Source: Nitrosopumilus sp. (GTDB lineage: Archaea > Thermoproteota > Nitrososphaeria > Nitrososphaerales > Nitrosopumilaceae). From it: a stretch of DNA of 64,000 nt. The position numbers were made by a program, and so were the translations under genes. Where the stretch lies: positions 186,001-250,000 of the forward strand of contig JAOTWS010000001.1 of NCBI GenBank assembly GCA_029862745.1, read 5' to 3'. Below, piece after piece: positions 3,382 to 59,865 of this stretch (the stretch's first letter is position 1; the number at the start of each line of letters is the position of its first letter). A model generated the notes under the pieces. That model was not told the DNA's origin and searched no databases. It worked only from the letters and a program-made list of their open reading frames with translations.

Positions 3382-3651
3382 ATGACATATTCTATGGATA
3401 AGAGACAAGATGGCCTTGCTGTTCTTATAAATCTACGAAATGAAGGACAACTTCCATGGCTCATTGATAGTTTAGAATCAATATTTGGTAATGAATCTGT
3501 GGAAAGTCTGTATACAGAAAAACAGATTACAATCACTATTGGTAAAATAGATTTTAGAGAGAAACACAGAAAACTAGTCCTTGAGGAGGTTCACAAATTT
3601 GATGGACTTGTTTTAGATGAAGTAGAAATCTATGATCATTTTCCACAATAG
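3382..3651 (+). CDS. hypothetical protein, 89 aa
   Basis: The 89-residue acidic protein has no recognisable family. It shows a helix-strand-helix character (NLRNEGQLPWLIDSLESIF, then QITITIGKIDF) and no membrane or metal-binding signature. The ATG start is about 30 nt after an AT-rich stretch. Codon use is typical of the window. It is followed by a region of gene decay. Confidence 0.6.
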   Translation: MTYSMDKRQDGLAVLINLRNEGQLPWLIDSLESIFGNESVESLYTEKQITITIGKIDFREKHRKLVLEEVHKFDGLVLDEVEIYDHFPQ

Positions 3652-5484: not shown

Positions 5485-7086
5485 CTAAAAGACTTCTTTT
5501 GGACGATATTCACCAAATACTTCTCTGAACGTATTGCTGATTTCACCAGTAGTAGCAAATGCTTTAGCAGCTGTGACGATATATGGCATTAGATTTTTGT
5601 CAGTATCAGCCGCACTTTTCATTGCTGAAAGTGCATCTTCCCATTTTTTAGCATCTCTAGATGAACGCAATTCTTTAAGTGCCTTCTTTTGTTGAATTTC
5701 TATTTTTCCGCCAATCCTAAGCAAGTCAGGTTGCTCTTCTTCTTCAACATATTTGTTAACACCAACAATAATTCGTTCATTGTCATCTGTTTCTTTTTTA
5801 AGACGATATGCGTTTGCCCTTATTTCGGATTGAAAGAATCCTTTTTCAATTGCTTTTACAGAGCCGCCCATTTTTTGGATTTTTTTCAAATATGCCCAAA
5901 CATCAGCCTCAATTTGATCACATAATTCTTCAAGATAATAAGATCCAGCCAATGGATCAGCTGTTTTTGTAATACCACTTTCATGAGCCACAATTTGTTG
6001 TGTTCTAAGTGCAATTTTTGCAGATTCCTGAGTTGGAAGTGCAAGTGCTTCATCTCTAGAATTAGTATGAAGTGATTGGGTTCCACCAGCAACTGCAGCC
6101 ATTGTTTGAATAGCAACACGAACGATGTTGTTATTTGGTTGTTGCGCAGTTAAAGATTCACCACTAGTTTGAGTATGAAATTTTAATTGTAATGAACGCG
6201 GGTTTTTGGCATGAAACATTTCTTTTAGAATTTTTGCATAAACTTTTCTTGCGACTCGAAACTTTGCAACTTCTTCAAAGAATTCTATAGTACAACAAAA
6301 AAAGAATGAAAGACGGGGTGCAAAGTCATCAATTTTTAATCCTTTATCCAAACAGGTTTGAATATATGCAATAGCATTTGCCAATGTAAACGCAACTTCT
6401 TGTGTAGCAGTACATCCAGCTTCTCGCATATGGTATCCAGATATCGAAACGGGGTACCATGAAGGTACTTTTTGTGCACAGTATTCTATCATATCACCAA
6501 TTAATCGCATGGAGGGTTGGGGTGGATAAATGTAGGTATTTCTGGCAATGTATTCTTTTAAAATATCATTTTGAGTGGTTCCACGAAGATCATGACTTTT
6601 GAATCCTTGTGCCTCGCCAACTGCAATATAATATGCAAGTAGAGTTGATGCAGTGGAATTAATAGTCATTGAAGAACTGACTTTGCCAAGTGGAATACCA
6701 TCAAATGCAGTCATCATATCCTTAATTGATGTGATTGAGACACCAACTTTTCCTACTTCACCTTCAGCTTGTGGCGAATCAGAATCATATCCAATTTGAG
6801 TGGGTAAATCAAATGCCATACTAAGACCTGTCTGACCTTTTTCAAGCATGAATTTGAAGCGTTCATTGGTAAGTTTGGCATCTCCAAATCCAGAATATTG
6901 TCTCATAGTCCAAAATCTTTCACGGAACATTTCAGGATGAATTCCCCTGGTAAATGGATATTTTCCAGAATCCTCAGCAGGTTTCTTCTTAGGAGATTTT
7001 TGATAAATACGCTTTACCGTAAAGCCTGAATCAGTAAAAATTTTCTTTTCAGATTCCTTTGATTTTGTTGATTTTTTATCGACCAT
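5485..7086 (-). CDS. mcmA1: methylmalonyl-CoA mutase, large (catalytic) subunit
   Basis: This 533-residue protein is the substrate-binding TIM-barrel half of adenosylcobalamin-dependent methylmalonyl-CoA mutase, which interconverts methylmalonyl-CoA and succinyl-CoA. Family motifs are clear: YPFTRGIHPEMFRERFWTMR near residue 43, RQYSGFG, MAFDLPTQIGYDSD, the FHTQTSGESLTAQQP strand and GGTQSLHTNSRDEALALPT. The B12-binding domain is absent and is encoded separately at 14028, the two-gene arrangement of archaeal mutases. The MeaB-type GTPase gene lies 4 bp upstream on the same strand. In ammonia-oxidising archaea the enzyme serves the 3-hydroxypropionate/4-hydroxybutyrate cycle. Confidence 0.96.
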   Translation of the reverse strand: MVDKKSTKSKESEKKIFTDSGFTVKRIYQKSPKKKPAEDSGKYPFTRGIHPEMFRERFWTMRQYSGFGDAKLTNERFKFMLEKGQTGLSMAFDLPTQIGYDSDSPQAEGEVGKVGVSITSIKDMMTAFDGIPLGKVSSSMTINSTASTLLAYYIAVGEAQGFKSHDLRGTTQNDILKEYIARNTYIYPPQPSMRLIGDMIEYCAQKVPSWYPVSISGYHMREAGCTATQEVAFTLANAIAYIQTCLDKGLKIDDFAPRLSFFFCCTIEFFEEVAKFRVARKVYAKILKEMFHAKNPRSLQLKFHTQTSGESLTAQQPNNNIVRVAIQTMAAVAGGTQSLHTNSRDEALALPTQESAKIALRTQQIVAHESGITKTADPLAGSYYLEELCDQIEADVWAYLKKIQKMGGSVKAIEKGFFQSEIRANAYRLKKETDDNERIIVGVNKYVEEEEQPDLLRIGGKIEIQQKKALKELRSSRDAKKWEDALSAMKSAADTDKNLMPYIVTAAKAFATTGEISNTFREVFGEYRPKEVF

Positions 7087-14027: not shown

Positions 14028-14450
14028 ATGAAGCAAAAAACTGCGTCTCGAAGTATCAAAATATTGGTTGCCAAGTTAGGTCTGGATGGTCATGATAGAG
14101 GAGCTCTTGTATTATGCAGGGCATTTAGAGATGCAGGGATGGAGGTAATCTATTCAGGACTTTTTGCCACACCAGATAGAATTGCACAGATAGCAGAAGA
14201 TGAAGATGTTGATGCAGTTGCAATGAGTTTACTAAATGGAGCACATGGGACATTATTTCCAAGAGTTGTAAAGGCTCTAAAAAAGAAAGGTGTTAAAGAT
14301 GTGCTTATTGTTGGAGGAGGTGTAATTCCTGAAATAGATCATAAGGATTTGATCAAAGCAGGAGTAGATCATGTGTTTGGACCGGGTACATCATTACCTA
14401 CAATCATTGATCATATAACAACTGGTGTTTCTAAATTAAGAAAAATATAA
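14028..14450 (+). CDS. mcmA2: methylmalonyl-CoA mutase, B12-binding subunit
   Basis: This 140-residue Rossmann domain binds adenosylcobalamin for the mutase encoded at 5485. The base-off/His-on motif DxHxxG is DGHDRG near residue 22, followed by the SLLNGAH strand-loop and the GGGVIP loop that cradles the nucleotide tail. It stands alone on the plus strand, 7 kb from its partner gene, as is common in archaeal genomes. The start lies about 25 nt after an AT-rich TATA-like stretch. Confidence 0.95.
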   Translation: MKQKTASRSIKILVAKLGLDGHDRGALVLCRAFRDAGMEVIYSGLFATPDRIAQIAEDEDVDAVAMSLLNGAHGTLFPRVVKALKKKGVKDVLIVGGGVIPEIDHKDLIKAGVDHVFGPGTSLPTIIDHITTGVSKLRKI

Positions 14451-48971: not shown

Positions 48972-50303
48972 CTATTCCAGTTCTAAAAGAATATTTGCAC
49001 TTCCAAAATCTTCGTTAATTCTAAAATAATATGTTTTTGAAGAATCATATTCAAATTTTGTTCCACCGTAACCAATATTTGGACCAAAAAGAATGTTGAA
49101 TTCTCTTGTGTCACCTGGATTCAGAACAATTTCTCCACTAGTAAAGTCCATTCCAGAATATTTGAATGCCTTTGAGCCATCCCATATATCATAACTGCAT
49201 ATAGAAGGACTTGTACAATGCATTGCAGTGATCTCAGAACTTGTGTTCTCAGCTAACATTCGAATGGATAATATAGCTTGTCCAGTTGGACTGATTACAA
49301 ATTCATTTCCTTCAGAGCCAATTCCAAACCAATAATAGGTAATTGGTCCAATTTCAAATCTTTCAGCATTTGCTTTATGCTTGTATAATGTAATTGCTTT
49401 TTTGATGGGTTTTTCACAATCAATTCTTTTGTAGCTTACTTTGATTTCAGAGCATTTTTCTAGTTCTGCTTCAAGTGCTGCCAATTCAGTATCAGTACTT
49501 TTTGGTGCTTCAGATGTCATTTGAGGGGTTTGAGAAGTTGCAGAAACTGAGATTAATCCAATTTTAATCATATGTTGGATACCATTTACAAATTCACCAT
49601 CAGTGATAGTTCCATCTGCCCACCAACCAGCATTAGTTTTTACCCAAGCTGGAACACCATCATCTGATGATTCAGAAGATACAGCTGTAGAAGGAACTAC
49701 AATGATGTCGTTTGTAATCAAAAATTCAATACCAGACAAGAATTCAGATTCAGAGATTGTTCCATCTGCCCACCAACCAGCATTAGTTTTTACCCAAGCT
49801 GGAACTTCATTTTGAGCAGAGGTCATATGGCGCATCATGGGATCAATACTGTTTAGAACATCATCCATGTTTTTTCCAGAAATTTTTACAACTGCCCCAG
49901 AAACAATTTCAGTGGTACCACCATGTGGTAAAGTAGAATCAACATATTTTGCATACAAAATATCACCAGGGGCGGATATTAGTCTATTTTTTGTTGGATC
50001 TCCAGAATCTGCAACATAAACACTACCTTTGAAAATCCCACTATACACACCTGTCTCCACAACTAGAATTTCCAAACCAGCAGGGGATGTATCAGACCAA
50101 ACAGTTATTGTAAATTTATCTGCAAAGTTTGGATATTCTTTTTTATTCATATCATTGTCTTTGACATAAATATCAGCAAAGGAGTTAATTGAAACAATCT
50201 CTTTATCCCAATAAATTATTCCAGTATTAGATGATTCTGCAAATACCATGGGTGTACCCATAAGAATTAATGAAAAAGCAATCACCATCCATTTATTCAT
50301 CAT
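48972..50303 (-). CDS. secreted surface protein with repeated WVKTNAGWW motifs
   Basis: An N-terminal signal peptide (WMVIAFSLILMGTPMVFAES) targets it outside. Residues 25-150 form a beta-rich domain (EIVSINSFADIYVKDNDMNK, SGIFKGSVYVADSGD). Two copies of PAWVKTNAGWWADGTI follow near residues 165 and 215, then a C-terminal beta domain with FGPNIGYGGTKFEYD. The repeat region is identical in DNA to that of the gene at 50418. Such repeats are common in secreted Nitrososphaerota proteins. Its promoter carries a CACTA box, so it may belong to the regulon described in Findings. Confidence 0.85.
   Translation of the reverse strand: MMNKWMVIAFSLILMGTPMVFAESSNTGIIYWDKEIVSINSFADIYVKDNDMNKKEYPNFADKFTITVWSDTSPAGLEILVVETGVYSGIFKGSVYVADSGDPTKNRLISAPGDILYAKYVDSTLPHGGTTEIVSGAVVKISGKNMDDVLNSIDPMMRHMTSAQNEVPAWVKTNAGWWADGTISESEFLSGIEFLITNDIIVVPSTAVSSESSDDGVPAWVKTNAGWWADGTITDGEFVNGIQHMIKIGLISVSATSQTPQMTSEAPKSTDTELAALEAELEKCSEIKVSYKRIDCEKPIKKAITLYKHKANAERFEIGPITYYWFGIGSEGNEFVISPTGQAILSIRMLAENTSSEITAMHCTSPSICSYDIWDGSKAFKYSGMDFTSGEIVLNPGDTREFNILFGPNIGYGGTKFEYDSSKTYYFRINEDFGSANILLELE
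49440..49808. repeat. 369-bp duplicated segment, copy 1
   Basis: Base for base identical to 50886-51254 in the same orientation. It covers the repeat region of the secreted protein gene. Inside it a 46-bp unit recurs at 49610 and 49760 (150 bp apart), encoding PAWVKTNAGWWADGTI. Total identity between two paralogues that differ on both sides indicates recent duplication or gene conversion. Confidence 0.95.
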
Positions 50304-50320
50304 GATGCTTTATCATTGCA

Positions 50321-50357
50321 AATATTTAAGGTCATAATTATTTTAGACTAGTGGCAA
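50321..50357 (-). promoter_or_regulatory. promoter with TTGCCACTA box, gene at 48972
   Basis: Reading the minus strand: TTGCCACTA (50357-50349), 10 bp, a weak second copy ATTATGACC (50338-50330), then CTTAAATATT (50330-50321) as TATA. The start codon at 50303 lies about 23 nt after the TATA centre, giving a leaderless transcript. One good box is present here, whereas sister promoters have two. Confidence 0.5.
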
Positions 50358-50417
50358 AAAACAATTATTTGAGATTAAGATGGATGTAAGTGTTTTTGTT
50401 AAAAATAAAAAAAGGGT

Positions 50418-51320
50418 TTATCCCAAATTTAATGGGATAGAAATGCTACCAAAAGATTCACTTCCTCTAAAGTAGTAATCTTTTTCAGGATCATATTCAA
50501 ATGTAGTTCCCCCGCCACCAATATTTGGTCCAAAGAACATATTGAACATTTCAGTTTCTCCAGGTTTTATTATAATCTGACCATTGGTGAAATCCATTCC
50601 TGAATATTTGAAATCCTCAACACCATTTGTGACATCATAGTTACATATAGCAGGTCCCGTACAAAACAGCGCCTCAGTTTGAGAACCAGTATTTTCAACT
50701 AAGATTCTGAGTCGGAGCATTGCTTGACCAGAGGATGTAATTTCAAAGCTGTTTCCTTCAGTTCCAAAACCAGGCCAATAGAAAGTAACAGGTCCAGCTT
50801 GATGAGGTTCTGAAAGCAGTTTGAAATTATATGCAGTGATTTCATGTTTTGCAGATCTTTCACAGTTGAGTCTATCATATGCTTTTTTGATTTCAGAGCA
50901 TTTTTCTAGTTCTGCTTCAAGTGCTGCCAATTCAGTATCAGTACTTTTTGGTGCTTCAGATGTCATTTGAGGGGTTTGAGAAGTTGCAGAAACTGAGATT
51001 AATCCAATTTTAATCATATGTTGGATACCATTTACAAATTCACCATCAGTGATAGTTCCATCTGCCCACCAACCAGCATTAGTTTTTACCCAAGCTGGAA
51101 CACCATCATCTGATGATTCAGAAGATACAGCTGTAGAAGGAACTACAATGATGTCGTTTGTAATCAAAAATTCAATACCAGACAAGAATTCAGATTCAGA
51201 GATTGTTCCATCTGCCCACCAACCAGCATTAGTTTTTACCCAAGCTGGAACTTCTGCATAAACAGATGCAGTAGAGGCCAATAGAAGTATTGCGGCAATT
51301 GCAGTTATTATGATTTTCAT
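50418..51320 (-). CDS. secreted surface protein, short paralogue of 48972
   Basis: Signal peptide ITAIAAILLLASTASVYAEV, then directly the two PAWVKTNAGWWADGTI repeats (residues 24 and 73), a charged linker and the C-terminal beta domain (FGPNIGGGGTTFEYDPEKDY). It lacks the N-terminal domain of the 443-residue neighbour. The shared 369-bp segment is identical, while the C-terminal domain has diverged, so a conversion event is likely. The promoter has two strong CACTA boxes. Confidence 0.85.
   Translation of the reverse strand: MKIIITAIAAILLLASTASVYAEVPAWVKTNAGWWADGTISESEFLSGIEFLITNDIIVVPSTAVSSESSDDGVPAWVKTNAGWWADGTITDGEFVNGIQHMIKIGLISVSATSQTPQMTSEAPKSTDTELAALEAELEKCSEIKKAYDRLNCERSAKHEITAYNFKLLSEPHQAGPVTFYWPGFGTEGNSFEITSSGQAMLRLRILVENTGSQTEALFCTGPAICNYDVTNGVEDFKYSGMDFTNGQIIIKPGETEMFNMFFGPNIGGGGTTFEYDPEKDYYFRGSESFGSISIPLNLG
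50886..51254. repeat. 369-bp duplicated segment, copy 2
   Basis: Identical to 49440-49808. See copy 1. Confidence 0.95.
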
Positions 51321-51340
51321 TGTTATATTTATTCAGAAAG

Positions 51341-51419
51341 GATATTTAAGATAGTGCTAAAATGAGTTCTAGTGCTAAAATGATAAAATCAAAATTAAAA
51401 TGACAAAATCTAGTGGTAA
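51341..51419 (-). promoter_or_regulatory. promoter with three CACTA boxes, gene at 50418
   Basis: On the minus strand TTAGCACTA occurs at 51378-51370 and again at 51360-51352, 18 bp apart. TTACCACTA lies further out at 51419-51411. A TATA-like CTTAAATATC follows at 51350-51341, with the start codon at 51320. The divergent DUF1722 gene (51471) has its own TATA (51441-51448), and the outermost box is the closer one to it. Confidence 0.6.
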
Positions 51420-51470
51420 TGTGAAATAGCGTTGTTTCTCTTTATATGGAAATGAAGAACAACTTGAAAG

Positions 51471-52016
51471 GTGAATGAGATTCAAAAATCCACAAGTGAA
51501 AAAATAAAAAAAATATCAGAAAGAGAGGTTAAAGAATTTGTGTTACAAAGATTTGAGGATGTAAAAAAAAGTAATAAAATAAAAGATTTGATTTCGTTTC
51601 AAGCAATGAACAAGTACATGGTGATGGCACATAATCAAAATGAGTTAAAGGTTTTAGGCAATATCGTAGCAAGCAACAAAAAAAATCCATTTTCAGAAAT
51701 ACTTGCCGAATATGAAAAACATCTAAAAGCGGCACTAAATAGCGAGCCTACAATAAAAAAACATAGTAATGTGATAATGCATATCTTTGGATTTTTTTCT
51801 AAAAACTTTAGTCAGTTAGAAAAAGAACAGTTTTTTAATTTGTTAAATCAATTTCAGGAAGAGCAGATCACTATAGGGAGTATTTTATCAGAGATAAATC
51901 CAATAATTTACAGATTCAACAACACATATCTTGCTAGCCAAACATATTTTCTTTTATATTCGGATCCAGATACGGGAAACATATTCCAATTTTTAAGAAA
52001 AGGTAATTCAGAATAA
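51471..52016 (+). CDS. DUF1722 (YbgA-like) protein
   Basis: The core reads DLISFQAMNKYMVMAHNQNE, then ILAEYEKHLKAAL, NVIMHIFGFFSKNFSQLEKE and TYLASQTYFL. These are the helical motifs of DUF1722, here without the DUF523 half found in bacterial YbgA-like fusions. In bacteria the domain is frequently next to photolyase and LitR/CarH genes, which matches the context here. Start is GTG at 51471, with TTTATATGG about 26 nt upstream. Molecular function unknown. Confidence 0.8.
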   Translation: MNEIQKSTSEKIKKISEREVKEFVLQRFEDVKKSNKIKDLISFQAMNKYMVMAHNQNELKVLGNIVASNKKNPFSEILAEYEKHLKAALNSEPTIKKHSNVIMHIFGFFSKNFSQLEKEQFFNLLNQFQEEQITIGSILSEINPIIYRFNNTYLASQTYFLLYSDPDTGNIFQFLRKGNSE

Positions 52017-52101
52017 GAGAATATTTGAGAGAAAATTTAGAATAAAGCAATAAAAATATTCAAATCAAAAATTAAATAGATTTTCGGATATATCATATAC
52101 T

Positions 52102-53259
52102 TTAAAAAAAATCAGAAAGTATTTTCTGCTGTATTAATTTTGAAATATTTCCATGTATGAGCCACTCAGTTTTACTTATACTAGTTCTATTTGATGCCAA
52201 AAGAATTGCATCATCAAAATTATCAGCAATGGCGGGATTTTGATTCATGACCTCACGAATGCCTTCACGGACTTGCCATACACCTACAGGAATCGCATAT
52301 TCAGGTCTGATTTCACGTAAAATAACGACTCCAGCCTGAATTTTCATTTTGGATAAATATTCTAATACACCCAATTTGGCTGCAAAATAGGCTCCAGCTA
52401 TTGCCGGAGAATGATCAATTCCACGTGCATCCTCAAAATCAGAGCCAAATCCCAAAACACTATCAGAATACCAAGCCTCAATCATTTCATACATCCATCT
52501 GTGCGGAAATAAAACAACAATGAAAATATTACCTAAATGCTCATAAAAAAAAACCCTGCAAGAATCAATTAAACCATAATCTAAAATCTCACTTACAAGA
52601 GATTTTGAAATAATATCATCAGTGGCAGTTATACTCCATTTAGTTGGAACAAGTTTTCTTTTTTTTCCCAACATACCAATACTAAAACATTTTTGAATTT
52701 TTGAAATTTCAATTCCAGAATCATACAAACTCAGAATTGCATCTTCTGCTTTCAAGTCTTTATCATAGAATATTTTTTCAATTGATTTATTAGAATTAGA
52801 ACTAAAGAACTTTGCAGATCTTATTTCTCCAATAGGACCAAAAGGGGCACTTTCACCATCAAGTAAAACATTAGATGATGTTGATTTTGAAAATATTATA
52901 TCAGTATCAGTAGGCTTAGAAGACATTGTTACCTCTTGAAGATCTTCTATATACCTACCATCTGTTTGATCAATTGAGATTTTTTGTATTCCACGAACTA
53001 AATTTAATCTAAAATTAACAATTTCTTCCAAAGATTTTCCTTTCCACTTTTCAGGACTATCAAACAGACTTGTGTCACCATGAATTGGAGGAAGCATTGG
53101 ACCAACAAAGACTTTTGGGTAGTTATGTGAACCCACGAAGACAGATGGCGGACTGGTTCCACTAATAGAATCAGAAGAAAATAAATTTCCATATTTTGAG
53201 AGAGTTTCATGCCACTTGGATAAAATTGCACGTCGAATATCTTGAGACTCAGAAGACAA
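52102..53259 (-). CDS. nreA: Nre family DNA repair protein (NreA-like)
   Basis: The family signature GTSPPSVFVGSHNYPKVFVG (residues 33-52), then PMLPPIHGDTS and FRLNLVRGIQ, identify an archaeal NreA. The C-terminus LIQQKILSDFF is a PCNA-interacting (PIP) peptide, as in haloarchaeal NreA/NreB, which act in DNA damage resistance. There is no N-terminal zinc finger, as in the A-type lineage. It is convergent with the DUF1722 gene and divergent from the cobalamin-binding gene. Confidence 0.88.
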   Translation of the reverse strand: MSSESQDIRRAILSKWHETLSKYGNLFSSDSISGTSPPSVFVGSHNYPKVFVGPMLPPIHGDTSLFDSPEKWKGKSLEEIVNFRLNLVRGIQKISIDQTDGRYIEDLQEVTMSSKPTDTDIIFSKSTSSNVLLDGESAPFGPIGEIRSAKFFSSNSNKSIEKIFYDKDLKAEDAILSLYDSGIEISKIQKCFSIGMLGKKRKLVPTKWSITATDDIISKSLVSEILDYGLIDSCRVFFYEHLGNIFIVVLFPHRWMYEMIEAWYSDSVLGFGSDFEDARGIDHSPAIAGAYFAAKLGVLEYLSKMKIQAGVVILREIRPEYAIPVGVWQVREGIREVMNQNPAIADNFDDAILLASNRTSISKTEWLIHGNISKLIQQKILSDFF

Positions 53260-53358
53260 CGTAAATTGTGCCTAAAATTACCCTATTAAGTTGCCTAATT
53301 AACAAAATTGACAGATTGTAAACGTATGATGTTTAAAGGATATTTGCAAATATAATAT

Positions 53359-54279
53359 ATGGTAGTTAAAAGAATTGTTTCTTTTCTGCCAAGTGCAACT
53401 GAGCTATTGTATGAATTTGGAGTACAAGATCTGTTATACGGGGTTACACATGAATGCAAATATCCACCAGATGCAAATTTAAAATTAAAAGTTATCAGTT
53501 CAGTGATTAAATCAGACAAACTATCAAGTCAAGAGATCGATATGATGACTTGCCAGTTACTAAAAGAAGGAACAGATATTTTCATTTTAGATGAAAAAAA
53601 TCTAAAAGATGCAAATCCAGATTTGATCATAACACAAGAAACTTGTGAAGTTTGCGCTGCATATACAAACCAAGTAAGTAAAGCGATAAAAATTCTTGAA
53701 AAAAAACCAACTCTGGTTTCAATGGATCCACATAACCTGTATGAAATTATTAACTCAGTTAAAGAATTAGGAAAAATATTAGAAAAAGAATCAAGAGCAA
53801 AAGAAATCATAGATTCGCTTGAGAAAAGAATTCAAAACATACAGAAAAAATCTACAGGTAAAAAGCCAAAAGTTCTTGCAATTGAATGGATTGATCCATT
53901 TTTTACTGCAGGTCATTGGATTCCAGAGATGATAGATATTGCAGGAGGAACTAACATGATCAGTAAAATTGGAGAGCGTTCCAGAAGATTAAGTTTTAAA
54001 GAGATTAACCAAGCTGATCCAGATATAATTATCATGATGCCATGTGGATTTGATATCAGACGTACAGTTTTTGAATACAATAAAATATTAAAAGAAAATG
54101 ATAATTGGAAATCGTTAAAAGCTGTTAAAAATAAACAGGTTTTTGGAGTTGATGCAAATTCATTTTTCAGCAAGCCAAGCATTAGAACGATAGACGGATT
54201 AGAGATATTAGCAAAAATAATTCAACCAGATACATTCCAGAATCTAAAAATAAAAGAAAATGCATATTTTGCAATATAA
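53359..54279 (+). CDS. BtuF-like cobalamin-binding protein, no signal peptide
   Basis: A class III solute-binding fold: RIVSFLPSATELLYEFGVQD near the start, TQETCEVCAAY in the middle, EWIDPFFTAGHWIPEMIDIA, and DPDIIIMMPCGFD. These are features of the BtuF-like 'cobalamin-binding protein' group. It has no signal peptide or lipobox, so it should be cytosolic and probably not part of a classic ABC importer. Its place beside a B12-dependent regulator hints at corrinoid handling. I see no CACTA box before it. Confidence 0.78.
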   Translation: MVVKRIVSFLPSATELLYEFGVQDLLYGVTHECKYPPDANLKLKVISSVIKSDKLSSQEIDMMTCQLLKEGTDIFILDEKNLKDANPDLIITQETCEVCAAYTNQVSKAIKILEKKPTLVSMDPHNLYEIINSVKELGKILEKESRAKEIIDSLEKRIQNIQKKSTGKKPKVLAIEWIDPFFTAGHWIPEMIDIAGGTNMISKIGERSRRLSFKEINQADPDIIIMMPCGFDIRRTVFEYNKILKENDNWKSLKAVKNKQVFGVDANSFFSKPSIRTIDGLEILAKIIQPDTFQNLKIKENAYFAI

Positions 54280-54318
54280 TTAACATGAACTAAAATAGAT
54301 CATAACACATACTAATAT

Positions 54319-54408
54319 ATGAAAAAATTAAATTTAATTCCTAGTGAGTTTATAAAAAATCTAGATATTGAAGAGTTATTAGAAATAAAAAAATATTGTT
54401 ATGTTTGA
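54319..54408 (+). other. possible small ORF, 29 codons
   Basis: ATG at 54319 to TGA at 54406-54408 reads KKLNLIPSEFIKNLDIEELL then EIKKYCYV. The composition is protein-like, and the end lies in a tandem repeat. It may be the truncated remnant of a gene disrupted by repeat expansion. Confidence 0.25.
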
Positions 54409-54458
54409 ATTAAAGATAAAAAAATATTGTTATGTTTGAATTAAAGATAAAAAAATAT
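54385..54458. repeat. 31-bp tandem repeat, 2.4 copies
   Basis: The unit starting ATAAAAAAATATTGTTATGT occurs at 54385-54415 and 54416-54446, and a partial third begins at 54447. It lies between the convergent btuF-like and SDR genes, where it could arise by replication slippage. It overlaps the SDR stop codon. Confidence 0.85.
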
Positions 54459-55834
54459 CAAATAGGTTTCCCCTTGTATTGATAATCAACTACTTTGTGG
54501 AATAAATTGTGAGAAGTAATCACAGTTATGGATGCAGTTACAATACCAATGAAATTTCGAAGAGTCATTAATTCACTAGGTAGATTAGCTATCAATGATG
54601 TTTGAAAAATTACATGAAAATTATCAAATAACCAAAATGCCAATGTAACCCAAGATAACACACCAGCTAAAAGATAACCTAAACGCGCCTTACTACGAAT
54701 AAAAATTATTGCCATAATGATTACAACGTACCAAATAAATGATCCTAGCAACCACAGTGGTTGGTATACTTCAGGTCTATCATCTAACCAATAATAAGAA
54801 GTGCCAATTATAGCCAATGCAAAAAGAGATATCTGAATAGCCTTTTGGTTAATTTTAAAACCAGTTTTTTCTTCTTTCATCTCAGACGGAGTAGGAGATG
54901 ACATCATTTCTTTAGTAGCAATGTCAATGGATTCACGGACAGACTTTAATCTCAATGGAATGATTTTTGTAATTTCATTATTTGTTACAACGGTATCATG
55001 TACAAGACTATCAATCAGAGGTCTTGCAAGAGATGCCTTTACAGGAGTAATCAAATCAACCCAATAAGAAGAAAGACGAGTGGTCAGAAATGGGATTTGC
55101 AAGACAAACAAATTTTTATTTAAATATGCAGAATAAACACGCATTAGTTCTTCATAGGTCATTCTATCAGGACCACCAATTTCAAATATTTTTCCTAGGG
55201 TTTCAGGTTTTTTAAGACATTCAGATAAATAATAAATTACATCATCAACTGCGATAGGTTGTGCAATAGATTTTACCCATGATGGACACACCATAATACG
55301 CAATCGTTCAACAAGATAACGAAGCATGGCATAAGATCCTCCCTGAGCACCTATAATCAAGGATGCACGTAATTCAGTAACAGGGATGTTTTTAGAGGCA
55401 AGTATTTCTCCGACTTCCTTACGACTTTTCATATGAGGAGATAATTCTAAACTATCATTAACCAAACCCCCAAGATAGATGATTCTCTTCACACCAGATT
55501 TTGTTGCAGCTTTGAGAAAATTTTGAGCTTGAATCTTTTCTCTAGATGCAAATTCTTTCCATTCTGATTTACTGCCCTCCATAGAATGAAGTAAATAATA
55601 TGCAACCTCAATACCATTCATTGCATTAGTGAGTTGATCAATATCAAAAACATCAGCTTGAACATATTTCACATTTTTAGTGTCAGGTATTTTTTTTCTA
55701 CTCAACCCCGTAACAGTGTAACCAGATTCAGATAGTAATGAAATCAATCGAGAACCAATGAAACCAGTAGCGCCAGTTACCAGAATAGAAAAAGGTGACG
55801 ATTGAATAAAGGAATCACTAGTATTTTTTTCCAT
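54458..55834 (-). CDS. NDUFA9-like SDR/NmrA epimerase with membrane tail
   Basis: Residues 14-300 are an atypical short-chain dehydrogenase: the NAD(P) loop TGATGFIGSRLI, VKYVQADVFD, then YYLLHSM and GVKRIIYLGGL. There is no classical YxxxK at the usual place, as in NDUFA9-type members. Residues 330-445 add three or four membrane helices (LFALAIIGTSYYW, GSFIWYVVIIMAIIF, VLSWVTLAFWLF). Homologues with such tails occur in bacterial light-inducible LitR/CarH clusters. It lies directly behind a decayed membrane gene, which it shares a CACTA-box promoter with. Confidence 0.82.
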   Translation of the reverse strand: MEKNTSDSFIQSSPFSILVTGATGFIGSRLISLLSESGYTVTGLSRKKIPDTKNVKYVQADVFDIDQLTNAMNGIEVAYYLLHSMEGSKSEWKEFASREKIQAQNFLKAATKSGVKRIIYLGGLVNDSLELSPHMKSRKEVGEILASKNIPVTELRASLIIGAQGGSYAMLRYLVERLRIMVCPSWVKSIAQPIAVDDVIYYLSECLKKPETLGKIFEIGGPDRMTYEELMRVYSAYLNKNLFVLQIPFLTTRLSSYWVDLITPVKASLARPLIDSLVHDTVVTNNEITKIIPLRLKSVRESIDIATKEMMSSPTPSEMKEEKTGFKINQKAIQISLFALAIIGTSYYWLDDRPEVYQPLWLLGSFIWYVVIIMAIIFIRSKARLGYLLAGVLSWVTLAFWLFDNFHVIFQTSLIANLPSELMTLRNFIGIVTASITVITSHNLFHKVVDYQYKGKPI

Positions 55835-55836
55835 TT

Positions 55837-56103
55837 TTACCTTAATTCTCCCAACTGCTTAACTCTCTCACGCTTCACGTAGAGTACAAACCAAATTGTA
55901 AAACAACCTGAATCCAACCAAAGATATGCACCAACATCTAATGCACCACTACTAGAACTGTCAATTCGCTGTATAATCAAAGAATCTCCTCAATTACCAA
56001 CAGAGTAAAAACTACAGATAAAAGTTGGTCATCCAATAATTCTACACCACTTCACATCTAGTCTTGAAAACAACTCATCTGTGAATACGCTATTGCTTTT
56101 CAT
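55837..56103 (-). pseudogene. small membrane protein gene with compensating frameshifts
   Basis: ATG at 56103 starts KSNSVFTDELFSRLDVKWCR and hits a stop in frame. The middle is coding in another frame (ELLDDQLLSVVFTLLVIEEI, a membrane segment). The original frame resumes with IIQRIDSSSSGALDVGAYLW and ends FVLYVKRERVKQLGELR at a TAA (55837-55839) just before the SDR start. A +1/-1 pair of indels around a roughly 20-codon stretch explains it. The promoter upstream is fully formed, so loss is recent or the product is changed. Confidence 0.5.
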
Positions 56104-56123
56104 AATTGAAGTTTTTGATCAAG

Positions 56124-56180
56124 TTATTTAAAACTAGTGTTAATTTTTTATTCTAGTGGTAAAATGTTCTTTCATGGTTA
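56124..56180 (-). promoter_or_regulatory. promoter with CACTA boxes for SDR operon
   Basis: Minus strand: a weak outer copy TTAACCATG (56180-56172), TTACCACTA (56162-56154) and TTAACACTA (56143-56135), spaced 18-19 bp, then TTTAAATAA (56132-56124) as TATA. The ATG at 56103 is about 25 nt on. This drives the broken membrane gene and the SDR gene. Confidence 0.65.
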
Positions 56181-56220
56181 AATGTAGGACAAAAGTGAAT
56201 AAAATAAATAAAATTAAGTA

Positions 56221-56257
56221 TTGGCACTATAAACATTTTTTAACACTAGTTATATAA
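56221..56257 (+). promoter_or_regulatory. promoter with CACTA boxes for the CarH-like gene
   Basis: TTGGCACTA (56221-56229) and TTAACACTA (56240-56248), exactly 19 bp apart, are followed by TTATATAA (56250-56257). The ATG at 56279 is about 25 nt later. The regulator therefore probably controls itself, and the boxes sit where a bound protein would affect TBP/TFB access. Confidence 0.7.
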
Positions 56258-56278
56258 GAAATACAATAATAACGAATA

Positions 56279-57133
56279 ATGGTCTACATTAGAGCTAAGA
56301 AAGTTAAGTCTGATCAGTACCTCTATTTGGTTAAAAGTATATGGGATTCCAAAAAAAGTACATCAAAACAAGAAATTATCAAATATCTTGGAAAAGCATC
56401 CGAAGTAATCAAGGATGACATACCGATAGATTATAGAAATGATCCTAAAGTATTATCAGTATTAGCATCATATAATCCAAAAGACATCAAAAAAAGAGAA
56501 GATGTAACTAAGAAATCAAAACAAGAATTATACAAGAAACTGACAGATGGTAGTATTGAACATTGTATTAAAATTTATGAAGAATATATCAAAATTTTTA
56601 ATGAATCAGACTTTTTTGATAAAATTTTAAGACCTGTAATGTATAAGATTGGAGATGATTGGGCAAGTAGTAAAATAAGTATTGCAACAGAACACGTAGC
56701 AAGCAACATAGCCCAAACACTAGTCAAAATAATAATGGATCGAGTTTCAGGTTTAAAAAATAAAAAAAGAATTCTAATTTGTGTTCCTTTAGGAGAAGAA
56801 CACAATTTAGGCTGTGATGTATTAGAGACATATCTATCAATTAAAGGGTTTAAAGTATACAATATTGGCACATCAATTCCAACTGAATCGATCTTGAGTT
56901 TTATTCAGAATGAAAAGCCAGAAATTATTCTAATTTCAATTACACTAGAAGATAATATTAGTGCAGGACAAAGACTAGTAAAAAAAATTAAAGAGCAACA
57001 TAAGATCCCAGTACTGATTGGAGGGCATGCTATACAAACACAGAAAACCCCTAAATTTGAAGGAGATGTCATTTATGATGTGCGACTAGAAGAAATACCA
57101 AAAATACTAAGAAAATACAATTCAAAATCATAA
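56279..57133 (+). CDS. CarH/LitR-like B12-binding regulator with atypical N-terminus
   Basis: Residues 80-155 form the helical cobalamin cap with the CarH signature W-x9-EH (W128, E138, H139, in DWASSKISIATEH). Residues 163-280 are the B12-binding Rossmann domain with E173-x-H175-xx-G178 (EEHNLG) for the lower axial histidine. These positions agree closely with Thermus CarH. The residue after W128 is Ala; in Thermus CarH it is the His that binds cobalt after light. Instead of a MerR helix-turn-helix, residues 1-45 (YIRAKKVKSDQYLYLVKSIW then IIKYLGK) resemble the N-terminus of IS1634/IS4-type transposases, likely a DNA-binding domain. The inferred role is an adenosylcobalamin-dependent, possibly light-sensitive, regulator. 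Confidence 0.82.
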   Translation: MVYIRAKKVKSDQYLYLVKSIWDSKKSTSKQEIIKYLGKASEVIKDDIPIDYRNDPKVLSVLASYNPKDIKKREDVTKKSKQELYKKLTDGSIEHCIKIYEEYIKIFNESDFFDKILRPVMYKIGDDWASSKISIATEHVASNIAQTLVKIIMDRVSGLKNKKRILICVPLGEEHNLGCDVLETYLSIKGFKVYNIGTSIPTESILSFIQNEKPEIILISITLEDNISAGQRLVKKIKEQHKIPVLIGGHAIQTQKTPKFEGDVIYDVRLEEIPKILRKYNSKS

Positions 57134-58474
57134 AGATTCCAAAAATGATTCAATTTTTGGTAAACACAAAATGGAGCTATGAGCAGCAGAGTCAGTACCT
57201 ATCCCATAGCTAATTGTAGAATCACCTACAAAAAAAAGTCCCTTTATACCTGGAATTTCATGAGGCATCTTAGATTTCCACACTAATCCAGGCTCCTTTG
57301 CAACAGATTCAACAAGTTTCCAGGCCATTGGTCTTTCCCATATTAATGAGGAATCAAACTGTGGATAAATTGACGAGATTTCCATTTTCATGGTTTCAAC
57401 GATTTCTTTTATTTTTTTTTGATCATCTGTAACAGATGGGGAGACTGGAGTACCTGCAATCATTAAATGTTCTCCAGGGGGAGAAACAGCAGGAGTGATA
57501 TTTGAGATAAAAAAGATTCCCTTAGTAACATAATTATCACCAACAGGAAATACAACTTGTCGTGTATCAATTTTCGAGTTTAACGCAAAATGAACTTCAA
57601 CCACAGATGTTTTCTTATTTAACCGATTTATTTTTGCAAGAAATTTGTTGTTCACAATACCATCATCAAATAACTGATTTAATGCAATGTATGCAGGGTA
57701 AGACACCACTACACAACTTGAAGCAATAAATTCATCTTTTCCAATGCTGTTACGTATAATGATTCCAACAACCTTGGAATTTTCTATTATAATTTTTTTT
57801 ACAGAAACATTAAGGTCTATTTGACATTGGTTTTGCATCACATAATTAGCCAATACTTGTGTGATTGAATCATAACCACCATCAGTAGGATATGCAAATT
57901 CGCTAGTACCGCCTCTAAAGGGATTTGCGCGAATTATAGTTCTAGTAAATTCACCTAAAGAGATATGATCAGCAGTATCTGCAAATGCGAGCATGCAAAC
58001 AGCTTCAAAGAATGCATTAGTTTCTGGATCTAATTTTTGAGTAACTCCAGTTAATGATTTGTCATCCCAAGATTCAGTTTTTTTTATGGATGTGAATGCC
58101 ATTGGAAGTAGAATTTTAAGAAGTTGGATTCTACTTTTAAAAGGAATCAAAGAGAGACGTAGTAAATCACCCATACCTTTAGGATATTTATGAAATCCAG
58201 ATTTTGAATGAAATGCAATGTCATCCACCTTTGATAAATTCAATCTAGATTCAATCCCAATGGATTTAAAAATACTAAAAATTGCTGATTTTTTATAAAA
58301 AGGCATTATGTGAAAACCATTATCCAAAATATGATTCCTAAATTTCATAGATGTTGTTCTGCCCCCTATCTGAGCACACTTTTCAAGTATTTTTGGATGA
58401 TATCCATGATTGGCAAGAAGTGCGCCAGCTGTTAATCCGCCTACACCAGCACCAATAATTATAATTTGAGACAC
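57128..58474 (-). CDS. CrtI-like FAD-dependent oxidoreductase
   Basis: A phytoene desaturase/amine oxidase-type flavoprotein. The FAD Rossmann motif IIIGAGVGGLTAGALLANHG is at residue 5, with LEKCAQIGGRT and, near the C-terminus, GLFFVGDSTISYGIGTDSAA for the flavin ribityl. The 448-residue length is short of CrtI (about 500), so it may act on another isoprenoid or a lipid. Start is GTG at 58474. It converges with the CarH-like gene (overlap 6 bp) and its promoter has two CACTA boxes. Confidence 0.85.
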   Translation of the reverse strand: MSQIIIIGAGVGGLTAGALLANHGYHPKILEKCAQIGGRTTSMKFRNHILDNGFHIMPFYKKSAIFSIFKSIGIESRLNLSKVDDIAFHSKSGFHKYPKGMGDLLRLSLIPFKSRIQLLKILLPMAFTSIKKTESWDDKSLTGVTQKLDPETNAFFEAVCMLAFADTADHISLGEFTRTIIRANPFRGGTSEFAYPTDGGYDSITQVLANYVMQNQCQIDLNVSVKKIIIENSKVVGIIIRNSIGKDEFIASSCVVVSYPAYIALNQLFDDGIVNNKFLAKINRLNKKTSVVEVHFALNSKIDTRQVVFPVGDNYVTKGIFFISNITPAVSPPGEHLMIAGTPVSPSVTDDQKKIKEIVETMKMEISSIYPQFDSSLIWERPMAWKLVESVAKEPGLVWKSKMPHEIPGIKGLFFVGDSTISYGIGTDSAAHSSILCLPKIESFLESL

Positions 58475-58490
58475 AAAGAGTTTTAGAAAT

Positions 58491-58532
58491 TTTTATATTT
58501 ATAATAGTGCCAAAATAATTTCATAGTGCTAA
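58491..58532 (-). promoter_or_regulatory. promoter with CACTA boxes for FAD oxidoreductase
   Basis: Minus strand: TTAGCACTA (58532-58524), 10 bp, TTGGCACTA (58513-58505), then TTATAAATATAAAA (58504-58491) as TATA. The boxes are 19 bp apart and next to the TATA box. The GTG start at 58474 is about 24 nt on. Confidence 0.7.
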
Positions 58533-58982
58533 TTATTTTGATAGATTAGATTGAAGATAATTTTCGGCGCAAATAACAAACTTCTCCATAACAGAATTCA
58601 TTTTTTTAATAATCAGAAATTTCAAAAATGGAATAAATTTTAAAATTCCATTTAGTTTTAAATATATTGAGATGTCAATATCAGTACCAAAAGATGAAGG
58701 GGTATATTTTTCAGAAAAAACTGTTCCCTTTAATAGACCGTTCAAAATAAACACCTGATGAGTATTTGGATGAGCAATAACATGTTTTGTTTTAATATCA
58801 TGATGGAAACCAAGAAAGTTAATAGATTCTAGAACAAGTTTTTCAGAAGTAGTGTCATCAAGAATTTCTAGAGATTTAAAATATTCAGGCATCACATTAT
58901 GAAAGTTTGATACATCAGTACTAATTTGAAAGAGAGTATCTCTTGGCAGCATACTTTGATTATGAAGATAAAAATGACTCAT
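58533..58982 (-). CDS. SRPBCC superfamily protein, 149 aa
   Basis: A START/Bet v1-like lipid-binding fold: N-terminal RDTLFQISTDVSNFHNVMPE (strand and the two-helix cradle), central VFSEKYTPSSFGTDIDIS and a long C-terminal helix KKMNSVMEKFVICAENYL. Members bind hydrophobic ligands such as isoprenoids or polyketides. It overlaps the upstream 119-residue gene by 4 bp (ATGA), forming a two-gene operon beside the FAD oxidoreductase. Confidence 0.78.
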   Translation of the reverse strand: MSHFYLHNQSMLPRDTLFQISTDVSNFHNVMPEYFKSLEILDDTTSEKLVLESINFLGFHHDIKTKHVIAHPNTHQVFILNGLLKGTVFSEKYTPSSFGTDIDISIYLKLNGILKFIPFLKFLIIKKMNSVMEKFVICAENYLQSNLSK

Positions 58983-59338
58983 GCTAATTCACACATTTTA
59001 ACATAATCAAACAAATTTGATTTGGTTATTACTATATCAGGATAATGATTCTTCATTTGAGCATAAACTTTTGCTAGAGATAATTTAACCGCATCTGTTT
59101 TTTCTGGATCAGTTTGAGGGAGCAATCTAATGGTAGTTTTTTTGTCATTAGTCATAATCTGAATAAAATATTCCTGATGTTTATCATCAATTACAATAGT
59201 TGGTAATATTGCAATACTACCACTCTTTTCGACATAAATTGTTGGGATTTTTATCAAAGGAGATTTTTGAAATATTGGAGTAAAAAGTTCAGAGAAATTA
59301 AAAAGATCAATTCGCCTATCCAAGACAATATGAGGCAT
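58979..59338 (-). CDS. hypothetical protein, 119 aa
   Basis: Cytosolic protein with strand-rich middle (IPTIYVEKSGSIAILPTIVI) and a C-terminal helical part around KTDAVKLSLAKVYAQMKNHY. No family recognised. It is the first gene of an operon with the SRPBCC gene, and its promoter has one good CACTA box. A role in the same pathway is inferred from position only. Confidence 0.65.
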   Translation of the reverse strand: MPHIVLDRRIDLFNFSELFTPIFQKSPLIKIPTIYVEKSGSIAILPTIVIDDKHQEYFIQIMTNDKKTTIRLLPQTDPEKTDAVKLSLAKVYAQMKNHYPDIVITKSNLFDYVKMCELA

Positions 59339-59360
59339 TATGTCATATCATATGATAATT

Positions 59361-59399
59361 GGTTATTTATCTAATCATCTAGAATTAAACTAGTGCCAA
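59361..59399 (-). promoter_or_regulatory. promoter with CACTA box for SRPBCC operon
   Basis: Minus strand: TTGGCACTA (59399-59391), 10 bp, a degenerate AGATGATTA (59380-59372), then ATAAATAACC (59370-59361). The ATG at 59338 is about 27 nt after the TATA box. The 19-bp phase of the other promoters is kept even though the second copy is weak. Confidence 0.5.
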
Positions 59400-59432
59400 T
59401 ATTAGCAATTAGATGTGAATTTTAGGCTATGT

Positions 59433-59469
59433 TTAGCACTAGATTAGAGAATTTCTAGACCTTAAATAA
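59433..59469 (+). promoter_or_regulatory. promoter with CACTA box for gene at 59490
   Basis: Plus strand: TTAGCACTA (59433-59441), then a degenerate TTTCTAGAC (59452-59460) at 19-bp phase, then CTTAAATAA (59461-59469). The ATG at 59490 is about 25 nt later. The intergenic region is shared with the divergent SRPBCC operon. Confidence 0.5.
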
Positions 59470-59489: not shown

Positions 59490-59687
59490 ATGACAACTGA
59501 ATTAGTCCATCAAAAAATTTGTTATAGTTATACGATTATTACAGATGTCTACACGGAAAAAATTACATTTAGTTTCAGTTCAGTTTTTTCTAAGAGATCT
59601 GTTGATTCAGGTGTAGAGACATTAGTTACCATCAGAGATAGGATTAAGTGGATAAAACAAAAAGTTGGAGGTGAAATCAGTGGGTAG
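59490..59687 (+). CDS. hypothetical protein, 65 aa
   Basis: Short beta-rich protein (SYTIITDVYTEKITFSFSSV) ending in a helix (TLVTIRDRIKWIKQKVGGEI). No family recognised. It overlaps the downstream zinc-finger gene by 8-23 bp depending on that start, implying translational coupling. Its promoter has a CACTA box. Confidence 0.6.
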   Translation: MTTELVHQKICYSYTIITDVYTEKITFSFSSVFSKRSVDSGVETLVTIRDRIKWIKQKVGGEISG

Positions 59688-59865
59688 AACATGTAGAGGG
59701 ATTTGTCAGATGCACAAAGCAGAGCCTGTTTCAAATAAAATAAGGTATGAAATTGGTCAAAAAAGATGTACATTTTGCGGCATATTTTTGTCATCAAATG
59801 ATACAAGATGTATTTGTTGTAAGGCAGTATTAAGAACAAAACCTCGAAGTAAAAAAAAGGACTGA
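59665..59865 (+). CDS. zinc-finger protein of a Nitrososphaerota-type family
   Basis: The sequence GRTCRGICQMHKAEPVSNKI, then GQKRCTFCGIFLSS and RCICCKAVLRTKPRSKKK gives several CxxC-type pairs and a basic tail. From memory, close paralogues (GRTCRGIC..KAEP..GQKRC..CG) are frequent and multi-copy in these genomes. Starts possible at TTG 59665, GTG 59671 or GTG 59680; the conserved part begins at the last. Nucleic-acid binding is plausible. Confidence 0.7.
   Translation: MEVKSVGRTCRGICQMHKAEPVSNKIRYEIGQKRCTFCGIFLSSNDTRCICCKAVLRTKPRSKKKD

Follow-up and report, generated by a model that had tools for sequence, protein, structure and literature searches.

CarH homologs are defined by two sequence signatures, Wx9EH and ExHx2Gx41SxV/Tx22-27GG (PMC8156234). 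In many, though not all, of them a His beside the Trp provides the upper ligand of a bis-His light state (PMC9304148). A SignatureFinder survey described light-responsive cobalamin-binding domains by the elements GxxW, EH, GxxH, and GxxxP and reported helix-turn-helix, cyclase, bilin, GAF, and MEDS partners, with no archaea in its main text (PMC11796333). In Pseudomonas, the locus of the LitR protein PmlR1 holds phrB, a short-chain dehydrogenase gene, and a FAD oxidoreductase gene (PMC9758184). CarH/LitR proteins, photocobilins, and their relatives were bacterial only in our search of open-access papers, which returned no archaeal CarH/LitR or B12 photoreceptor.

Ammonia-oxidizing archaea (AOA) are among the most abundant marine microbes and are light-sensitive. 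Photolyases are already known from epipelagic and low-salinity AOA (PMC9239080), and no report of a regulator or an operator for them was found in the open-access literature. Here, we describe a gene of a Nitrosopumilus-type archaeon, situated in a 64-kb stretch of DNA (referred to as the window), that encodes a CarH-like B12 protein. We estimate a probability of about three in four that this protein represses transcription in an AdoCbl-dependent, light-responsive manner, as CarH does, and controls a photoprotection regulon.

Domains and nearest relatives of the B12 protein

The protein consists of a head (residues 1 to 46), a linker, a four-helix bundle (residues ∼67 to 157), and a Rossmann B12 domain (residues ∼161 to 280). 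The open reading frame is real. Among 250 genomes of the family, 123 conserve it as protein, with alignments that start at residue 1. Pfam recognized B12-binding_2 at residues 82 to 152 (3.5e-10) and B12-binding at residues 165 to 255 (8.7e-15), and it accepted no family, and no MerR domain, within the first 80 residues. The top NCBIfam model was CarH (1.6e-16; residues 79 to 260), which aligned only from residue 79 onward and gave 60.4 bits, below its equivalog cutoff of 400 bits. Neither Pfam nor NCBIfam produced a transposase match that would indicate an IS4-type DDE catalytic domain. Among PDB sequences, the best relatives were photocobilins and CarH/LitR proteins, and AerR matched too. 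A biliverdin-binding domain is absent; the protein stops at residue 284, right after the Rossmann domain.

Structural comparison gave the same relatives. The top Foldseek chain for the protein model was the B12 domain of Thermus thermophilus CarH (TtCarH; E of 5e-11), and VIA-align aligned 207 residues with a photocobilin at a Z score of 16.9 and a root mean square deviation (rmsd) of 11.0. Superposition of the whole protein left an rmsd of 10 to 11 Å because the relative placement of the domains in the model is uncertain (pTM of 0.52), and CarH and the photocobilins still ranked first. By the MerR criterion the protein stands outside CarH/LitR; by its B12 domain and the gene set described below, it appears to work like a member.

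CarH-defining motifs and residue 129

Several features tie the B12 domain to light sensors. First, W128-x9-E138-H139 has the exact CarH spacing, and each of the three residues is kept in 94 of 101 distinct homologs. Second, the lower-axial motif and its completion, E173-x-H175-x2-G178-x41-S220-x-T222-x25-G248-G249, are also exactly spaced, with E173 and H175 kept in 101 of 101. Third, the SignatureFinder elements GxxW, EH, and GxxH are all present as G125-xx-W128, E138-H139, and G172-xx-H175; a G197-xxx-P201 is present as well, which may not be the GxxxP position meant in that work (PMC11796333). An earlier note, made from the sequence alone, had proposed an archaeal CarH/LitR-like B12 sensor, and this view agrees with the Pfam domains, the CarH motifs, and the nearest solved relatives, CarH and the photocobilins. 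Its residues W128, A129, E138, H139, and H175 are all correct in the translation, both motifs that it pointed out have the CarH-defining spacing (PMC8156234), and the structural match to CarH on which it had made the likeness depend was found.

The residue beside the Trp is Ala129. This position is variable over the 101 homologs, where Ala (48), Glu (14), Gln (11), and Ser (8) are the commonest residues and His is not among them. The H132A variant of TtCarH was mostly tetrameric in the light in one study, in contrast to the disassembly seen in an earlier report (PMC10442372). Given the non-His residue and the tetrameric H132A protein, the archaeal light-release step probably differs from that of TtCarH or uses another residue. 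For the altered light-state chemistry suggested earlier, the Ala is only partly telling, since position 129 is variable and bacterial CarH proteins do not always have the His (PMC9304148).

The cofactor is probably in use in the source organism, because putative methylmalonyl-CoA mutase-type subunits, read from translations, are encoded in the window at positions 5485 to 7086 and 14028 to 14450, and because AOA make cobalamin, having acquired its synthesis (PMC7554672).

Distribution and a paralog

Homologs were found in 145 of 400 genomes of the class, including other families, putative soil lineages among them, at 37 to 47% identity. A search with the head profile in 250 genomes of the phylum gave no match in the sampled families outside the order. 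Seven of the 101 homologs represent a paralog (∼37% identical to the window protein) that lost the W, E, and H of Wx9EH and kept H175. The paralog gene sits in loci L073, L074, L077, L086, L123, L124, and L126. Its immediate neighbors are often a photolyase gene and those of a MEDS-domain and a small winged-helix-like protein; its promoter carries its own conserved element, ACTCAYCWAGGTGCGTAATNGGATTAAATAC, not TTAGCACTAG.

A transposase-type head

Conservation within the family is highest at residues 1 to 49, where 11 columns are invariant in 25 sequences that represent several genera and families. The AlphaFold model of the head shows three strands followed by a helix (pLDDT of 90). Neither single-sequence HMM scans with the head (Pfam and NCBIfam) nor a profile search of PDB sequences returned anything of weight. 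When the head was compared by hhalign with the N termini of IS1634-type transposases from related archaea (loci L175 to L190), the probability was 96.9% and the score 46.3, compared to at most 5% and at most 15, respectively, in 60 column-shuffled controls. Since the single-sequence scans were empty, this relation is visible only at the profile-profile level. The earlier note had seen a non-MerR head of about 45 residues resembling that of IS1634/IS4-type transposases; the absence of MerR and the hhalign match uphold this, and of the HMM searches that it called for, the single-sequence form failed and the profile-profile form succeeded. Fold searches with the head model among solved structures reached a Foldseek E value of 0.7 at best and VIA-align Z scores of ≤4.3; this missing match is no evidence of a new fold. 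The occurrence of the head on transposases, together with the operator data below, suggests that it binds DNA.

The same N-terminal head was also seen on a Fic-type protein (HPFGDGNGR) in locus L204 (G178:C1:1008000-1016000; ORF at 3437, minus strand), so that transposases and Fic proteins have it in common with the B12 regulator. This sharing, like the lack of a confident fold match, counts against the repressor reading.

Gene neighborhood and photolyase

In ∼90 loci, the B12 gene lies near genes for an NmrA/epimerase-type protein, a FAD oxidoreductase, an SRPBCC-like protein, a DUF1722 protein, and TFB (Table 1). A photolyase gene accompanies it in 22 of these loci and lies within 4 kb of it in 23 genomes. 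In the family, 51 of the 53 photolyase-bearing genomes hold the B12 protein or its paralog. Among 250 genomes, protein and photolyase were both present in 51, the protein alone in 72, photolyase alone in 2, and neither in 125 (Fisher P = 1.6e-16); the genomes in this and the operator test below are related, and the P values therefore overstate independence. As a counterexample, one genome (G015) has a photolyase and nearby operator sites but no detected homolog of the B12 protein. Both the co-occurrence of the B12 protein with photolyase and the tandem operator described below are new here.

TABLE 1 Features of the B12 gene cluster in the window
Feature	Position	Strand	Remarks
Repeat protein	48972..50303	-	Operator site TTGCCACTAG upstream
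Putative operator site TTGCCACTAG	50348..50357	-	Upstream of 48972-50303 (-)
Putative secreted protein with VPAWVKTNAGWWA repeats	50418..51320	-	
Three putative operator sites (51351, 51369, 51410)	51351..51419	-	Between divergent 50418-51320 (-) and 51471-52016 (+)
DUF1722 (YbgA-like) protein	51471..52016	+	Pfam 1.4e-35; in photolyase operon in several relatives
NmrA/epimerase-type SDR protein	54458..55834	-	458 aa; conserved divergent neighbor
Putative tandem operator TTACCACTAG ... TTAACACTA	56135..56162	-	Faces divergent gene 54458-55834; same intergenic region as B12-gene operator
Putative tandem operator of B12 gene	56221..56249	+	TTGGCACTAT at 56221-56230, TTAACACTAG at 56240-56249; 19-bp period
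TATA-like TTATATA	56250-56256	+	Directly after B12-gene operator
CarH-like B12 protein gene	56279..57133	+	284 aa; Nitrosopumilus-type archaeon
Three-stranded beta head, residues 1-46	56279..56416	+	Strands 2-9, 12-23, 28-39; IS1634-type transposase-related
Wx9EH codons (W128 to H139)	56660..56695	+	Motif capping adenosyl group in CarH (PMC8156234)
E173-x-H175-x-x-G178 codons	56795..56812	+	Lower axial His motif; completed by S220-x-T222 and G248-G249
FAD-dependent oxidoreductase (phytoene desaturase/HpnE-like)	57128..58474	-	Putative regulon member
Putative tandem operator TTAGCACTAT-N9-TTGGCACTAT before TATAAATA	58504..58532	-	FAD oxidoreductase promoter
SRPBCC-like protein	58533..58982	-	Weak Polyketide_cyc match; conserved neighbor
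Conserved 119-aa protein	58979..59338	-	Putative regulon member
Putative operator site TTGGCACTAG	59390..59399	-	Upstream of 58979-59338
Putative operator site TTAGCACTAG	59433..59442	+	Upstream of decayed TFB gene

The conserved neighbors also bear on a different role. The B12 domain matches corrinoid methyltransferase proteins (NCBIfam pyl_corrinoid, 9.5e-13), and the protein could accordingly be the corrinoid protein of a methyltransferase system; close homologs belonging to such a pathway were among the findings that the earlier note had named as refuting a sensor. No corrinoid methyltransferase partner, however, is among the conserved neighbors of the ∼90 loci, the protein has the CarH-type Wx9EH cap and a conserved extra head, and the operators tie its gene to photoprotection genes. 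The methyltransferase role was rejected for its lack of partner genes and has almost no probability left.

Some further observations were made in the cluster. The decayed TFB gene (59491 to 59690, plus strand) has several stops and a frame change, and its operator at 59433 is still complete. In many relatives the TFB gene at this position is undamaged. The two putative secreted proteins at 48972 to 51320 (minus strand), both with operator sites, are built of repeated VPAWVKTNAGWWADGTIS units for which Pfam has no family.

A tandem operator and the genes that it precedes

Upstream of the B12 gene is a tandem repeat, TTAGCACTAG-N9-TTAGCAYTAG, that extends from marine Nitrosopumilaceae to other families and soil relatives. 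The second copy abuts a TATA-like box, and the period is 19 bp in 51 of 52 repeat pairs. The fragment from 56221 to 56257 that was proposed earlier for a gel shift coincides exactly with this conserved location. Ten sites in the 64-kb window scored above 14 (50348, 51351, 51369, 51410, 56153, 56221, 58504, 58523, 59390, and 59433), and all of them lie within 50348 to 59442, the 9.1 kb around the B12 gene, in the promoter regions of the cluster.

The operator precedes particular gene families in relatives. A site was found upstream of the FAD oxidoreductase gene in 32 of 38 cases, the DUF1722 gene in 39 of 39 (either strand), the repeat protein genes in 51 of 66, the 119-aa protein family in 28 of 36, and the TFB genes in 23 of 56, and before none of eight other neighbor families with 15 to 17 members each. 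The count for the B12 gene itself (72 of 98) is circular because the matrix was built from B12-gene promoters; the counts for the other gene families are not. Photolyase operons had a site on the same strand in 17 of 40 and on either strand in 24 of 40, and about half of them have no strong site directly upstream.

Genome-wide sites were located by pattern searches. In the source genome, sites also cluster at a pyrimidine-dimer DNA glycosylase/TFB locus and in the surroundings of the contig C8 photolyase. The first of these (L151:5743-7036, minus strand) encodes a glycosylase of the T4 endonuclease V type (Pfam 3.8e-27) and a TFB, each with an operator upstream, and is likely a UV-repair arm of the regulon. 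A site directly upstream of the contig C8 photolyase was expected and is absent; other genes at that locus carry it. Small conserved proteins (AEEQEWANLLAEIFDKLTQKHASITYDFENLEM...) near photolyase or other regulon genes, which belong to no known family, have operator sites as well (L131:2050-2629, minus strand; L152:4652-4837, plus strand).

The B12 protein might sense cobalamin level or redox state instead of light through the same operator, with the repair genes as incidental targets. The match of the B12 domain to AerR, a B12-binding coregulator, is consistent with this, as is the BtuF-like cobalamin-binding protein that is a frequent neighbor (53359 to 54279, plus strand, in the window). 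However, the operator precedes the BtuF-like gene in 0 of 17 cases, and the conserved Wx9EH cap is a signature of AdoCbl light sensors (PMC8156234). The regulon, moreover, comprises photolyase, pyrimidine-dimer glycosylase, and kin of bacterial light-induced genes and no genes for B12 uptake or synthesis. A cobalamin or redox signal is therefore considered unlikely, and light is the preferred one.

Across genomes, the operator tracks the B12 protein. Of 250 genomes, 94 have both the protein and the tandem operator, 29 the protein only, 8 the operator only, and 119 neither (Fisher P = 1.4e-32; related genomes), and the reversed pattern used as a control hit a single genome. In near-complete genomes of the genus, the mean number of TTAGCACTAG sites was 5.8 with the protein compared to 2.8 without it (P = 1e-4; related genomes); the reversed control differed little (1.6 and 1.0).

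This tracking argues against assigning the operator to another factor, such as a dedicated TFB paralog or a winged-helix protein, with the B12 gene merely one of its targets. TFB genes are indeed frequent neighbors that carry a site themselves in 23 of 56 cases, and the second repeat is at the TFB contact position upstream of TATA. Yet the operators persist in the window although its TFB copy is decayed, and soil relatives ∼40% identical to the window protein keep the operator before the B12 gene despite different neighbors. Ownership by another factor thus seems improbable, and the B12 protein remains the favored ligand of the operator.

Proposed mechanism

By analogy with CarH (PMC8156234, PMC9304148), the following scheme of dark oligomerization and light release is proposed for the B12 protein as a repressor. 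In the dark, AdoCbl bound between the four-helix bundle and the Rossmann domain, with H175 as the lower ligand and W128, E138, and H139 above the adenosyl group, would keep the protein oligomeric. The heads of the oligomer would sit on at least two direct repeats of TTAGCACTAG with the 19-bp period. One repeat, right upstream of the TATA box, would be at the position of the TFB-recognition element, and binding to this contact region would therefore block assembly of the preinitiation complex. Light would cleave the Co-C bond and dissociate the oligomer, freeing the regulon. The latter would consist of the B12 gene itself, the FAD oxidoreductase, DUF1722, repeat protein, TFB, and pyrimidine-dimer glycosylase genes and, in many species, photolyase operons, so that the B12 gene would repress itself plus the photoprotection set.

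Taken more broadly, the family may constitute an archaeal branch of B12 photoreceptors that has a transposase-type beta head in place of MerR, a new 19-bp direct-repeat operator at TATA, a release step free of bis-His ligation, and, in AOA, a photoprotection regulon of photolyase operons, pyrimidine-dimer glycosylase, DUF1722, FAD oxidoreductase, and TFB. We lean toward this wider picture. The protein is best read as an AdoCbl-dependent, light-released repressor, the first archaeal case as far as the open-access literature searched shows. If this is true, the way in which marine and soil nitrifiers respond to light would have a molecular switch with a defined regulon, and the B12 light-sensing module would have been joined to a DNA-binding head of another kind in a second domain of life. 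The protein would also be a natural case for CarH-type release without a bis-His ligand, and it might serve optogenetics as a compact part that brings a new operator.

Comparison with known systems

The archaeal protein combines features of several described families. With IS1634-type transposases it shares the ∼40-residue head, including a common YxYxxxSxWD...K...YLGK pattern and a 97% profile match, but it lacks their catalytic domain and has the head fused to a B12 domain. Photocobilins (SasPcob and AbDPcob) are the top PDB sequence match for its B12 domain, and SasPcob likewise has a Gln, not a His, after the Trp. Unlike the photocobilins, however, it has no biliverdin domain, and its output is a DNA-binding-type head rather than a bilin domain or cyclase. 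Myxococcus CarA, which lost the Trp of the cap motif (PMC9304148), resembles the archaeal paralog in that the paralog keeps the lower His without a Wx9EH cap; CarA retains the EH, whereas the paralog is without all three residues. The class II LitR (PplR/PmlR) loci of Pseudomonas have a similar light-induced set of photolyase, short-chain dehydrogenase, and FAD oxidoreductase, but class II proteins consist of the helix bundle only and are controlled by a LOV protein, in contrast to the full B12 domain found here.

The closest comparison is with class I CarH/LitR of Thermus thermophilus, Bacillus megaterium, and Myxococcus. The archaeal protein differs from these by its transposase-type beta head instead of a MerR helix-turn-helix, by the lack of a His beside the Trp, and by a repeat period of 19 bp compared to 11 bp for bacterial CarH (PMC9304148). 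Most of its apparent targets are genes for DNA repair and for oxidoreductases, and a pathway of carotenoid synthesis is not evident. What the two have in common is the two-part B12 domain with Wx9EH and ExHx2Gx41SxTx25GG, direct-repeat operators that overlap the core promoter, and photolyase-type genes nearby.
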